Source: Streptococcus sanguinis
GTDB taxonomy: Bacteria; Bacillota; Bacilli; Lactobacillales; Streptococcaceae
Reading direction: 5' to 3'
Assembly: GCF_003943655.1 (NCBI RefSeq)
Contig: NZ_RJMM01000024.1
Coordinates: forward strand, 1-32,654
DNA: 32,654 nt
Below, piece by piece: positions 360 to 4,561 of this stretch (position 1 is the stretch's first letter; each line of letters begins with the position of its first letter). The notes under the pieces are model-generated. The model ran no database searches. It was not told the DNA's origin and saw only the letters and a list, made by a program, of their open reading frames with translations. Position numbers and translations under genes: made by a program.

Positions 360-1112
360 TTACCAGAGGATTTCGCACTGGCTCCCGACAGCATTTTGGA
401 AGGATTCGACCGGTGGCTGGTCGGTGATAATGCAATCCAGACTAGAGTAGTTGGAAAGTTTGAAATAATGACTGGTGTTAAACTTAGAATGGTCGGCTAG
501 TAAAATGGCTTTATCACTATTAGCGATCATTTCCCGCTTGATATGTGCCTGATTATGGTTAGCTTCGTAAGCGGCGTAGCGATCCAATCCGCGGCAGCTA
601 AAGAAGAGTAAGTCTGCATGGAAATTGTTGATGAAGTTGGCTGCAAAATCGCCCAGCGCAGAATTGGTCCCGCAGCCAATATGTCCACCTGATAAGAAGA
701 GGGTGACATTTTCAAAATTATTTAGCTGGCGGGCTGCTTCAATACCATTGGTTATGACACGTAGGTTCTGGAAAGGTGCCAAATGCGGAATGAGCATGGC
801 TGCAGTCGTAGAGCTGTCAATGAAGATAGACTGGTTATGAGTGATAAAGGTTGAAGCAATTTCAGCAATTTGCTGCTTGCTTTTTTCTTCTTCACGGGCG
901 CGAGCAGAATACACATATTCTACATTGTTGGCCGTAATCAGCATGACCTCACCATGAGAGCGGATGATTTTCCCCTCTTTTTCTAGCTCAATCAAGTCCC
1001 GTCGAAGTGTTGATGTAGAACAGTACAAAAGTTCTTCAAGTTGGGCGGTTGCAATAATCTTTCGCTTGCTGAGAGTGTCTATAATTCGACTCATTCGTTC
1101 CAAAGAAACCAT
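360..1112 (-). CDS. fucR: DeoR-family transcriptional repressor, probable L-fucose operon regulator
   Basis: This 250-residue protein has the DeoR layout: an N-terminal winged helix-turn-helix (about residues 6-55, with a STSTLRRDLIELEKEGKI recognition region) and a C-terminal sugar-phosphate-sensing DeoRC domain. The open frame extends upstream to 1196, but ATG at 1110-1112 is preferred: it is preceded by GGAGGT 7 bases away, and the upstream residues are hydrophobic and not DeoR-like. The gene is transcribed divergently from the fucose operon, as is usual for DeoR-type repressors of sugar operons. Paired TGAAC repeats at both ends of the intergenic region are the likely binding sites. The likely inducer, by analogy with FucR and FcsR, is fuculose-1-phosphate or a related phosphosugar; that is inference. 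Confidence 0.85.
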   Translation of the reverse strand: MVSLERMSRIIDTLSKRKIIATAQLEELLYCSTSTLRRDLIELEKEGKIIRSHGEVMLITANNVEYVYSARAREEEKSKQQIAEIASTFITHNQSIFIDSSTTAAMLIPHLAPFQNLRVITNGIEAARQLNNFENVTLFLSGGHIGCGTNSALGDFAANFINNFHADLLFFSCRGLDRYAAYEANHNQAHIKREMIANSDKAILLADHSKFNTSHYFKLSNYSSLDCIITDQPPVESFQNAVGSQCEILW

Positions 1113-1127
1113 AGTGACCTCCACCGA

Positions 1128-1142
1128 TGAACAAAGATGAAC
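1128..1142. promoter_or_regulatory. Putative FucR operator 1 (two TGAAC repeats, 10-bp phase)
   Basis: TGAAC occurs at 1128-1132 and again at 1138-1142, inside a longer GATGAACA direct repeat. The pair lies between the repressor's predicted transcription start and its ribosome binding site. DeoR-family proteins often bind direct repeats spaced by a helical turn. Function is inferred. Confidence 0.5.
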
Positions 1143-1154
1143 ATTTATGGTCAC

Positions 1155-1184
1155 ATTATAACACAATAAACGAAAAAAAATCAA
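1155..1184 (-). promoter_or_regulatory. Promoter of the fucose repressor gene
   Basis: On the minus strand, -35 TTGATT (1179-1184), an 18-base spacer and -10 TATAAT (1155-1160) with an upstream TG (extended -10) form a good sigma-A promoter. Confidence 0.7.
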
Positions 1185-1200
1185 TATAGTAACCATTAGA

Positions 1201-1239
1201 TTGAACGATTATGAACTGTTTTGGCTATATTGTTATATA
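1201..1239 (+). promoter_or_regulatory. Likely fucose operon promoter region with FucR operator 2
   Basis: A TGAAC pair at 1202-1206 and 1212-1216 repeats the 10-bp phasing of operator 1 and sits where the -35 region should be. Candidate core elements are TTGAAC (1201-1206) with TATATT (1226-1231, spacer 19), or ATGAAC with TATATA (1234-1239, spacer 17). Neither is strong, so the exact start site is uncertain. Confidence 0.4.
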
Positions 1240-1274
1240 AAAGTTGGCTATTTATCAATTAGAGGTATAGGTAT

Positions 1275-1288
1275 TGAATGCGCTTACA
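1275..1288 (+). promoter_or_regulatory. Candidate cre site (CcpA) in the fucose operon leader
   Basis: TGAATGCGCTTACA matches the cre consensus TGWAANCGNTNWCA at all defined positions except one. It lies downstream of the presumed promoter and 37 bases before the first start codon, so CcpA bound there would act as a roadblock giving glucose repression. Confidence 0.55.
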
Positions 1289-1324
1289 AAAAATACTATG
1301 ATGAATCCAGAAAGGAGTGAGATT

Positions 1325-2044
1325 ATGGATCATCAAGAAGAAATAATCCGCGAACAAATATGTGATGTATGCCACAAAATGTGGCAATTAGGCTGGGTAG
1401 CCGCTAATGACGGCAATGTTTCAGTCCGTCTAGACCAAGATACCATTATTGCAACGCCAACAGGTATCAGTAAGAGCTTTATCACGCCTGAAAAACTCGT
1501 CAAGCTCAATCTAAAAGGGGAGATTATTGAGGCTCAGGACGGCTATCGTCCGTCCAGTGAAATCAAGATGCACATTCGCTGCTATGAAGAACGGGAGGAT
1601 GTGAATGCTGTCGTCCACGCGCATCCGCCAATTGCGACTGGCTTTGCACTGGCTCATATTCCGCTTGATACCTATTCCTTAATCGAGAGTGCCATTGTAG
1701 TAGGAGCAATTCCTATCACTCCCTTTGGTGTGCCATCTACTATGGAAGTGCCGGATGCCATCACCCCATACTTGCCAGAACATGATGTCATGTTACTTGA
1801 AAATCATGGTGCCTTGACTGTAGGAAGCGATGTGATTACAGCTTACTATCGGATGGAAACCTTGGAGCTGGTTGCTAAGACCACCTTCCACGGACGCATG
1901 TTGCTTTCTACTAAGGGAGTTGAGGAGGAAGAAATTTCTCGTCCAACCTTGGAACGCTTGTTTGCAATGCGGGCCAATTATAAAGTCACAGGCCGTCACC
2001 CTGGTTATCGTAAATATAATGGTGACGGAAGCATCAAAGAATAA
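1325..2044 (+). CDS. fucA: L-fuculose-1-phosphate aldolase (class II aldolase family)
   Basis: This 239-residue class II aldolase is predicted to split L-fuculose-1-phosphate into DHAP and L-lactaldehyde. The zinc-site pattern of FucA is visible: E79 in RPSSE, H98 and H100 in VVHAHPP, and H161 in ENHGA. N28 and G30 of the phosphate-binding start (AANDGNVS) are also typical. The frame continues upstream to a TTG at 1274, but ATG 1325 has an AAAGGAGTGA ribosome binding site and starts where the family starts. It is the first gene of the operon, followed by the isomerase after 21 bases. The family also includes ribulose- and rhamnulose-phosphate enzymes; the neighbouring isomerase fixes the substrate as fuculose phosphate. 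Confidence 0.88.
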   Translation: MDHQEEIIREQICDVCHKMWQLGWVAANDGNVSVRLDQDTIIATPTGISKSFITPEKLVKLNLKGEIIEAQDGYRPSSEIKMHIRCYEEREDVNAVVHAHPPIATGFALAHIPLDTYSLIESAIVVGAIPITPFGVPSTMEVPDAITPYLPEHDVMLLENHGALTVGSDVITAYYRMETLELVAKTTFHGRMLLSTKGVEEEEISRPTLERLFAMRANYKVTGRHPGYRKYNGDGSIKE

Positions 2045-2065: not shown

Positions 2066-3832
2066 ATGACTCAACATCCACGTATTGGAATTCGTCCAAC
2101 CATTGACGGACGTCGCCAAGGTGTTCGGGAATCACTAGAAGTACAAACCATGAATATGGCTAAAAGTGTGGCTGACTTGATTAGCTCAACTTTGAAATAT
2201 CCTGACGGTCAGCCTGTTGAATGTGTTATTTCGCCATCTACCATCGGTCGTGTCCCTGAAGCAGCCGCATCACATGAATTATTCAAAAAATCAAATGTCT
2301 GCGCGACTATCACAGTGACACCATGCTGGTGCTATGGTAGTGAAACCATGGATATGTCACCAGATATTCCGCATGCGATCTGGGGCTTCAATGGCACTGA
2401 ACGGCCAGGAGCAGTTTATCTCGCTGCAGTACTGGCTTCACATGCACAAAAAGGTATTCCAGCTTTTGGTATTTATGGCAGGGATGTCCAGGAAGCTAGC
2501 GACACTGAAATTCCAGAAGATGTAAAAGAAAAAATTCTCCGTTATAGTCGGGCCGCTTTGGCAACAGGACTGATGCGTGACACAGCTTACTTGTCCATGG
2601 GCAGCGTCTCTATGGGAATCGGTGGCTCCATTGTCAATCCTGACTTCTTCCAAGAATACCTGGGTATGCGCAATGAATCAGTTGATATGACGGAGTTTAC
2701 TCGTCGGATTGACCGAGGCATTTATGACCACGAAGAATTTGAACGGGCCATGGTTTGGGTCAAAGAGCACATCAAAGAGGGTGTGGATCGCAACCGTGAA
2801 GACTTGGTTCTTTCTCCAGAAGAAAAAGCAAAACAATGGGAATTTGTAGTCAAAATGTTCATGATTGGCCGAGATCTTATGCAAGGCAATTCTCGCTTGG
2901 CTGAGCTTGGCTTTGAGGAAGAAGCTGTTGGGCATCATGCCTTGGTTGCTGGCTTCCAAGGTCAGCGTCAATGGACCGACCACTTCCCGAACGGGGACTT
3001 CATGGAAACCTTCCTCAATACTCAGTTTGACTGGAACGGCATTCGTAAGCCATATGTCTTTGCGACAGAAAATGACTCGCTCAACGGTGTGTCTATGCTC
3101 TTTAACTATCTCTTGACAAATACACCGCAAATCTTCGCAGATGTCCGGACTTATTGGAGTCCAGAAGCGGTAGAACGTGTTACAGGGCATCAGTTAGAAG
3201 GTCAGGCAGCTGACGGCTTCCTGCACTTGATTAACTCTGGCTCTTGTACTCTGGATGGAACGGGGCAAGCCAGTCGAGACGGCAAGCCAGTCATCAAGCC
3301 ATTCTGGGAATTGGAACAAAGCGAAGTAGATGCGATGCTTGAAAATACAGACTTCCCACCAGCCAATCGCGAATACTTCCGTGGGGGCGGTTTCTCTACT
3401 CGCTTCTTGACCAAGGGCGATATGCCTGTGACCATGGTACGTTTGAACATCCTTAAAGGTGTAGGTCCGGTCTTACAAATCGCTGAAGGTTATACTTTGG
3501 AATTGCCAGAGGAAGTGCATCATACCTTGGATAATCGAACAGATCCGGGCTGGCCAACCACTTGGTTTGCACCGCGTTTGACAGGAAAAGGCGCCTTCAA
3601 GTCTGTCTATGATGTTATGAACAACTGGGGAGCAAACCACGGTGCTATCACCTATGGCCATATCGGAGCGGATTTGATTACGTTGGCTTCCATGCTGCGT
3701 ATCCCAGTCAATATGCACAATGTGCCAGAGGAAGACATCTTCCGTCCCAAGAACTGGTCACTGTTTGGCACAGAAGATTTGGAATCAGCCGACTACCGTG
3801 CTTGCCAATTATTAGGGCCAATTCATAAATAA
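2066..3832 (+). CDS. fucI: L-fucose isomerase
   Basis: A 588-residue protein closely matching the length of E. coli FucI (about 590). It should interconvert L-fucose and L-fuculose, a Mn-dependent cytosolic ketol isomerisation. Visible family features are the start [12 protein letters not shown], the metal-site motif [10 protein letters not shown] (about residues 332-342), preceded by [10 protein letters not shown], and [15 protein letters not shown] near the C-terminus, which contains the expected metal-binding histidine. ATG 2066 was chosen over an upstream TTG at 2051 because GGAGG (2052-2056) is correctly spaced for it. The gene lies directly after the aldolase and before a hairpin that separates it from the PTS-like genes. 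Confidence 0.95.
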
Positions 3833-4198: not shown

Positions 4199-4561
4199 AT
4201 GGCAGGACAAGACAAAAGCTCAAGCCAAGAGCTGATGCGACTGATTGTCAAGAGTAGTAAAGTGACTGCGCAAGTCATGCAGAGTTTGGAGTTGGCTCAG
4301 TCAGGTCAGAAGGAGGAAGCAAATGCTGAGTTGGAACAAGCGAGAAAACTCAGCGTGGAGGCTCACAACTTACAGACCAGCCTTATCCAGTCTGAACTGA
4401 GTGGTCAAGCCAATCCTCCAAGTCTGCTGGCGGTCCATGCTCAGGACCATTTTATGAATAGCCATTTATTACTCGAATTAGCCGCCGTATTTCTCAATCA
4501 AATAGAAGAAATTGAAGATTTAAAAGCAAGAATTGCAAAACTGGAACAGGTAGGTGAGTAG
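4199..4561 (+). CDS. PTS lactose/cellobiose-type EIIA-like protein (orphan)
   Basis: A 120-residue, largely alpha-helical protein with the EIIA-Lac/Cel pattern. The active-site histidine appears as H80 in VHAQDHFM, and D83 matches the metal-binding aspartate (H78 and D81 in lactose EIIA). The three-helix arrangement ends in a coiled-coil-like segment (IEEIEDLKARIAKLEQ). It is longer than the usual 100-105 residues, mainly by its N-terminus and this C-terminal coil. It follows the EIIB-like gene by 4 bases, and its stop overlaps the ribosome binding region of the ABC ATPase gene, so translational coupling is likely. As with its partner, the acceptor and purpose are unknown. Confidence 0.75.
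   Translation: MAGQDKSSSQELMRLIVKSSKVTAQVMQSLELAQSGQKEEANAELEQARKLSVEAHNLQTSLIQSELSGQANPPSLLAVHAQDHFMNSHLLLELAAVFLNQIEEIEDLKARIAKLEQVGE

Follow-up and report, generated by a model that had tools for sequence, protein, structure and literature searches.

The window analysed here is the whole stretch of 32,654 bp from Streptococcus sanguinis, in which an L-fucose operon and the gene of its putative regulator FcsR are divergently oriented. The genes and features of this region are as follows.

360..1112, minus strand: fcsR-type regulator gene, 250 aa, with HTH_DeoR and DeoRC domains (Pfam); N-terminus kept in orthologues
1118..1122, minus strand: Shine-Dalgarno sequence GGAGG of fcsR (from the sequence)
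1128..1152, plus strand: predicted operator array O1-A, with TGAAC at 1128 and 1138 and a weak TGGTC at 1148
1128..1201, no strand: module copy A, operator and fcsR promoter (profile match 39.6 bits, best in the window)
1155..1184, minus strand: fcsR promoter TTGATT-18-TATAAT, 10/12, with the -10 at 1155-1160 (promoter scan; ATTATA at +27 in orthologues)
1202..1226, plus strand: predicted operator array O1-B, with TGAAC at 1202 and 1212 and a weak TGGCT at 1222
1202..1275, no strand: module copy B (profile match 19.1 bits, second in the window)
1229..1258, minus strand: apparent decayed copy of the fcsR promoter, TTGATA-18-AACAAT, 9/12 (74 bp from the intact one)
1245..1269, no strand: weak remnant of a promoter-proximal site O2, TGGCT at 1245 and GTATA at 1265
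1274..1302, plus strand: fcsA operon promoter TTGAAT-17-TATGAT (promoter scan; position conserved)
1274..1289, no strand: cre (CcpA) element over the operon -35, matching WTGNAANCGNWNNCW with 0 mismatches on the minus strand and 1 on the plus strand
1325..2044, plus strand: fcsA, class II aldolase, gene 1 of the L-fucose operon (PF00596)
2066..3832, plus strand: fucI, L-fucose isomerase (NCBIfam NF008220, 1102 bits, cut-off 775)

FcsR belongs to the DeoR family, with 42.4 bits for PF08220 (cut-off 21) and 153.2 bits for PF00455 (cut-off 31.8), and is 99-100% identical to the FcsR of four named S. sanguinis strains. Of the 13 proteins compared, 12 retain the STSTLRR motif of the DNA-binding domain. 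A sequence search for relatives of solved structure gave only a deoxyribose operon repressor chain (186 aa, E 1.2e-9), which aligns to FcsR residues 77-239, outside the DNA-binding part. FucR of E. coli, also of the DeoR type, is reported as an activator of the L-fucose operon; unlike that protein, FcsR reaches only 110.2 bits against the corresponding model NF007720, below its cut-off of 259. FucR of Lactobacillus rhamnosus GG, another DeoR-type protein, is likewise said to activate its L-fucose operon (reportedly the work of Becerra in 2015). The divergent operon contains fcsA, fucI, an ABC transporter, an FGGY kinase, a fucU-like gene and a lactaldehyde reductase-like gene. Among these genes fucI alone passes the NCBIfam cut-offs, and fcsA scores below those of the NCBIfam fuculose-phosphate aldolase models. 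A lone gene for a lactose/cellobiose-type PTS IIA domain (4199-4561) also lies within the ABC-transporter operon; no IIB or IIC family was among the matches listed for the nine further proteins that were searched between 360 and 11502. Past the end of fcsR is a perfect 16-bp inverted repeat with a 4-nt loop (306-341), probably a two-way terminator. The Rfam scan of the window gave nothing at the gathering score.

Orthologues of FcsR are rare in the genus: among 284 Streptococcus genomes, 9 contain one at E<=1e-90, including seven that are S. sanguinis-like, and at E<=1e-70 one was found in 10 of 395 genomes of the order. Orthologues are also present in Abiotrophia, Granulicatella and Aerococcaceae. 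The S. sanguinis FcsR is 79-80% identical to those of Abiotrophia, versus 72-74% to those of the two other Streptococcus genomes. Because the protein is rare in Streptococcus and closer to Abiotrophia than to the rest of its genus, its distribution suggests horizontal transfer among the Lactobacillales.

On the plus strand, TGAAC starts at 1128, 1138, 1202 and 1212; the 10-bp period of both pairs and the 74 bp between them were thus correctly described in the first-pass annotation. The TGAAC arrangement is far beyond chance. Two TGAACN5TGAAC matches were observed on both strands of the window versus 0.08 expected, and at least two were present in 0 of 100 shuffles. Dinucleotide shuffling of the 212-bp intergenic region gave two such pairs in 0 of 20,000 cases and at least one in 19. 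When any 5-mer was accepted, two 10-bp pairs were found in 28 of 20,000 shuffles, and two pairs at any single spacing of 6-21 bp in 364 of 20,000. The whole genome has 6 matches, and the 4 outside the fucose region are located in, or at the start of, frames read as coding.

The repeats are conserved together with the regulator. TGAAC/TGAAT-N5-TGAAC was present upstream of fcsR in all 26 loci of the first orthologue set, with three exact units in L014 and L038. A wider search matched 57 of 395 genomes, from which loci were taken for the best matches only. The comparison set comprised 22 loci, one per lineage: 16 with fcsA as the first operon gene, and 6 with the kinase gene first, which were taken as the pneumococcal type from gene order. 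It omits the other S. sanguinis loci (L007-L010, L018-L021, L033, L034), the near-identical loci (L013, L022, L024, L029-L031, L035-L037, L040, L041, L076), L032, whose upstream sequence reads N, and those 12 of the 20 wider-set loci that have no divergent FcsA at about 70% identity (L065, L067, L068, L070, L071, L073, L074, L078, L080-L083). In three-unit TGAAC chains, 10 bp was the best or tied-best spacing in all 16 fcsA-first loci (13 outright, 3 tied), with a score reached by 0-20 of 1000 shuffles. A strong pair, or array, was defined by at least 9 of 10 bases, and 13 of the 16 fcsA-first lineages have one. The loci lacking such a pair are L064, L066 and L077, and 3 of the 6 kinase-first loci. 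For the kinase-first loci, 10 bp was best or tied in 2 of 6, both times tied.

The distances around the repeats are also conserved. From the first half-site it is 72 bp to the operon -35 (TTG) in nine lineages, and 27 bp to the fcsR -10 (ATTATA); the intervening sequence is largely variable between orthologues and its length is constant. In L042 (58% identity) fcsR is about 150 bp further off, yet the TTG at +72, read directly from its sequence, is kept. In the seven distant fcsA-first loci the predicted operator lies 93-95 bp from the operon -10, although for L072 and L077 that -10 was picked among several candidates as the nearest to 95, so that these two lend the spacing weak support. In the Granulicatella-type loci L014, L040 and L039 the fcsA frame looks by eye to be broken soon after its start, with fcsR and the operator retained; L038 and L039 were assigned to Granulicatella by a genus code in common with a genome whose locus equals that of G. 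elegans.

These observations give several half-sites in one helical phase beside the gene of a DeoR-type regulator, the arrangement expected of a direct-repeat operator. The idea that the pairs form the operator of this regulator is therefore supported in its main point; however, the pairs are not the whole array, since each is followed by the weaker third unit in the same 10-bp phase. Both pairs would then be copies of one FcsR operator, O1, each with three half-sites of which the third is weak. Some of the omitted loci bear on the range of the half-site. An exact 10-bp TGAAC pair occurs in L065, exact 11-bp pairs occur in L080 and L082, and L081 and L083 have TGAAC-N5-TGAAT; L083 has a further exact 10-bp pair at 179, in or near the next gene. 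Exact TGAAC pairs spaced by 10 or 11 bp are absent from the rest of those 12 loci. The regulators of L065 and L080-L083 are FcsR-like DeoR proteins whose flanks lack the fucose genes searched for, yet 10- or 11-bp-phased TGAAC/TGAAT is found there. The TGAAC half-site may thus be common to a wider DeoR subfamily.

A second site is located closer to the operon promoter in many relatives. Columns were numbered from the first half-site, which places the operon -35 at column 72, and a TGAAC match at a column means 4 of 5 bases or better. All 6 kinase-first loci have TGAAC near column 43 and an exact GTTCA at column 63, so that O2 in these relatives reads TGAAC-N15-GTTCA; 5 of them also have TGAAC near column 10, and none has it near column 0. 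Of the 7 distant fcsA-first loci, 6 have a GTTCA-like site at columns 62-64 and none has TGAAC near column 43; L066 is offset by 2 bp and hence fails the direct-repeat columns. Nearly all loci of both groups therefore carry a GTTCA-like half-site whose start lies about 9 bp upstream of the -35, a result reached by 0 of 2000 shuffles in each. In the close clade the GTTCA-like site occurs in 2 of 9 (146 of 2000 shuffles) and TGAAC near column 43 in 4 of 9 (0 of 2000). S. sanguinis itself has TGGCT and GTATA at columns ~43 and ~63, with GCATA and GTACA in some strains, and the promoter-proximal GTTCA-like site of the window retains 3 of 5 bases. The kinase-first loci thus resemble the window in having TGAAC half-sites at matching columns; they differ in the kinase being the first gene, in regulators only 36-41% identical to the window FcsR, and in a weaker 10-bp array combined with the strong inverted site at the promoter.

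The position of array A relative to the fcsR -10 matches that in the orthologues. The array lies just downstream of this -10, covering the inferred fcsR start (near 1148 on the minus strand) and leader; the first-pass annotation had likewise placed one of its pairs in the leader. FcsR bound to copy A would block fcsR transcription, and autorepression is likely because the array overlaps the transcription start. The other pair had been assigned to the operon -35 region. This does not hold, since the -35 is at 1274, 72 bp after the first TGAAC of O1-B and the same distance as in the other eight lineages compared; the pair sits 57-72 bp upstream of the -35. The scan found 4 promoter-like sites in the divergent region versus 1.4 expected in shuffles. 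A promoter-like pair on the minus strand (ATAACA-17-CATAAT, 9/12, 1208-1236) overlaps array B, is unexplained and may be chance.

Relative to the inferred fcsA start near 1309, the predicted sites lie at about -107 to -83 (copy B) and about -44 to -40 (the weak promoter-proximal site), both upstream of the -35, and FcsR at these two sites would act on the operon from upstream. We lean, by a modest preference, towards activation of the operon by FcsR rather than repression. Activation fits because the sites are upstream of the -35 and because 5 of the 7 distant fcsA-first promoters combine a good -10 (5-6 matches) with a weak -35 (2-3 matches). The half-sites beside the operon -35 in the relatives also suggest activation from upstream, and the GTTCA-like half-site occupies an activator-like place. 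In general, upstream activation accounts for the conserved positions of the sites no worse than repression does. Activator dependence is not obvious in the close clade, as its -35s are moderate (3-5 of 6 matches). FcsR probably responds to a phosphorylated fucose intermediate, which is the inducer in E. coli. CcpA would in addition repress the operon through the cre, whose consensus we take to be WTGNAANCGNWNNCW. A match without mismatch on the minus strand was reached in 12 of 3000 shuffles, and a cre at the -35 with at most 1 mismatch on the better strand is present in 16 of 17 regions; L042 has 3.

Repression of the operon by FcsR, of whatever kind, is a serious though less favoured possibility. 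Its specific form, in which FcsR is a classical repressor and copies A and B, perhaps with the weak O2, shut both promoters through a loop or oligomer on one helical face, appears somewhat unlikely. Many DeoR-family proteins are repressors, and all 7 S. sanguinis-like genomes retain the exact TGAAC pairs of both arrays. In the available part of one report, the pneumococcal SP2168 regulator, opposite in strand to a fucose-inducible operon, is called the fucose operon repressor (PMC3302838). The accessible text of another describes Caldicellulosiruptor FucR, like other DeoR and LacI regulators there, as judged to be a repressor from site position (PMC8579813). The 74 bp between the pairs also corresponds to 7.05 turns at 10.5 bp per turn. 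However, about one spacing in ten would fall within 0.05 turn of an integer by chance, and the distance conserved across species is the 72 bp from operator to fcsA -35; the near-seven-turn spacing was therefore dropped as evidence. Array B, moreover, does not overlap the fcsA promoter. Among the 22 loci, two arrays in phase were found in S. sanguinis only, whereas 15 loci have one array and 6 have none, so that looping between two arrays cannot be the general mechanism.

The spacing of the pairs apparently has a simpler origin in a 74-bp tandem duplication, because two arrays are found only in S. sanguinis and A and B look like two copies of one module. The intergenic region is 212 bp long in S. 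sanguinis versus 140-154 bp in the other close relatives (the longer L042 not counted). A profile built from the modules of seven non-sanguinis lineages, which themselves score 34-79 in leave-one-out, picked out copies A and B as the best two of all window positions; the third match (26299, minus strand, 3.9 bits) was inspected and contains no TGAAC. For the non-operator part of the profile, A ranks 1 and B ranks 61 of 65,220 positions, and the score of B in this part was reached by 1 of 5000 shuffles. Homology of B to the module beyond the operator is thus supported, not strongly. Copy A retains ATTATA at +27; copy B retains TTG at +72, and ATTGTT replaces its ATTATA. Accordingly, the proposed history begins with an ancestral block, about 72-74 bp long, that held the operator and the -10 and -35 of fcsR and was duplicated in tandem in the lineage of S. 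sanguinis. Copy A would have kept the fcsR promoter and now serve fcsR; in copy B the fixed 72-bp spacing from the fcsA -35 would have been preserved and the -10 lost. Under this history a distance of 74 bp is expected, and looping between the pairs, as the first-pass annotation had envisaged, is not needed to explain it.

An independent origin of the second array, within inserted DNA of about 70 bp, is improbable. It is conceivable because the agreement between A and B extends to only 36 of 72 columns, with 23 of 35 inside the operator and 13 of 37 beyond, and because the promoter part of B, 61st in the window, is no outlier. Nevertheless, an independent gain would hardly predict that A and B are the top two matches to the orthologue module, that the non-operator part of B beats nearly all shuffles, that a degenerate fcsR promoter stands exactly 74 bp from the intact one, or that, of the two conserved distances, A retains the one of 27 bp and B the one of 72 bp. 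Chance, or the sites of another regulator, is a very poor explanation, since short as the 5-mers are, no shuffle of the region yielded both pairs and the repeats are conserved beside FcsR in many Lactobacillales loci. Taken together, the predicted operator identity, the tandem duplication and fcsR autorepression form a reading that we consider reasonably probable as a whole. A bolder extension is doubtful: the shared module would have split into two specialised copies, one for the regulator gene and one for the operon, the promoter-proximal site would have decayed, and the copies, seven turns apart, may now bridge each other, replacing an earlier O1-O2 bridge that spanned about four turns. If true, this would be an example from nature of an operator that was duplicated and subfunctionalised with its helical phase conserved.

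The direct-repeat operator of a DeoR-type regulator is of an already known kind. The FruR repeats of Lactococcus lactis, a finding attributed to Barriere in 2005, are said to have a 10-bp period. One study, in the portion consulted, describes FruR as a sugar regulator of the DeoR type with four non-palindromic repeats as potential binding sites, and states that several other DeoR-type regulators bind palindromes (PMC2222622). FcsR is likewise a DeoR-type sugar regulator with a predicted direct-repeat operator; the half-site and the sugar differ, and in S. sanguinis the module appears twice. The FcsR operator may already have been predicted in a published comparative-genomic reconstruction of FucR regulons that includes S. 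sanguinis SK36 (PMC3616900); in the sections available it lists this regulon for both Streptococcaceae and Lactobacillaceae and gives no motif or promoter geometry. In the literature searched, no study of the S. sanguinis fucose operator or its duplicated module was found by title or abstract.

For the fucose regulators of the Lactobacillales, these results provide a testable geometry, in which direct TGAAC repeats precede the operon -10 by about 95 bp. In many loci the geometry adds a half-site beside the -35, and in the close clade the regulator's own promoter lies in between. S. sanguinis, with its apparently doubled module, would represent a natural experiment on the evolution of a control region after such a doubling.
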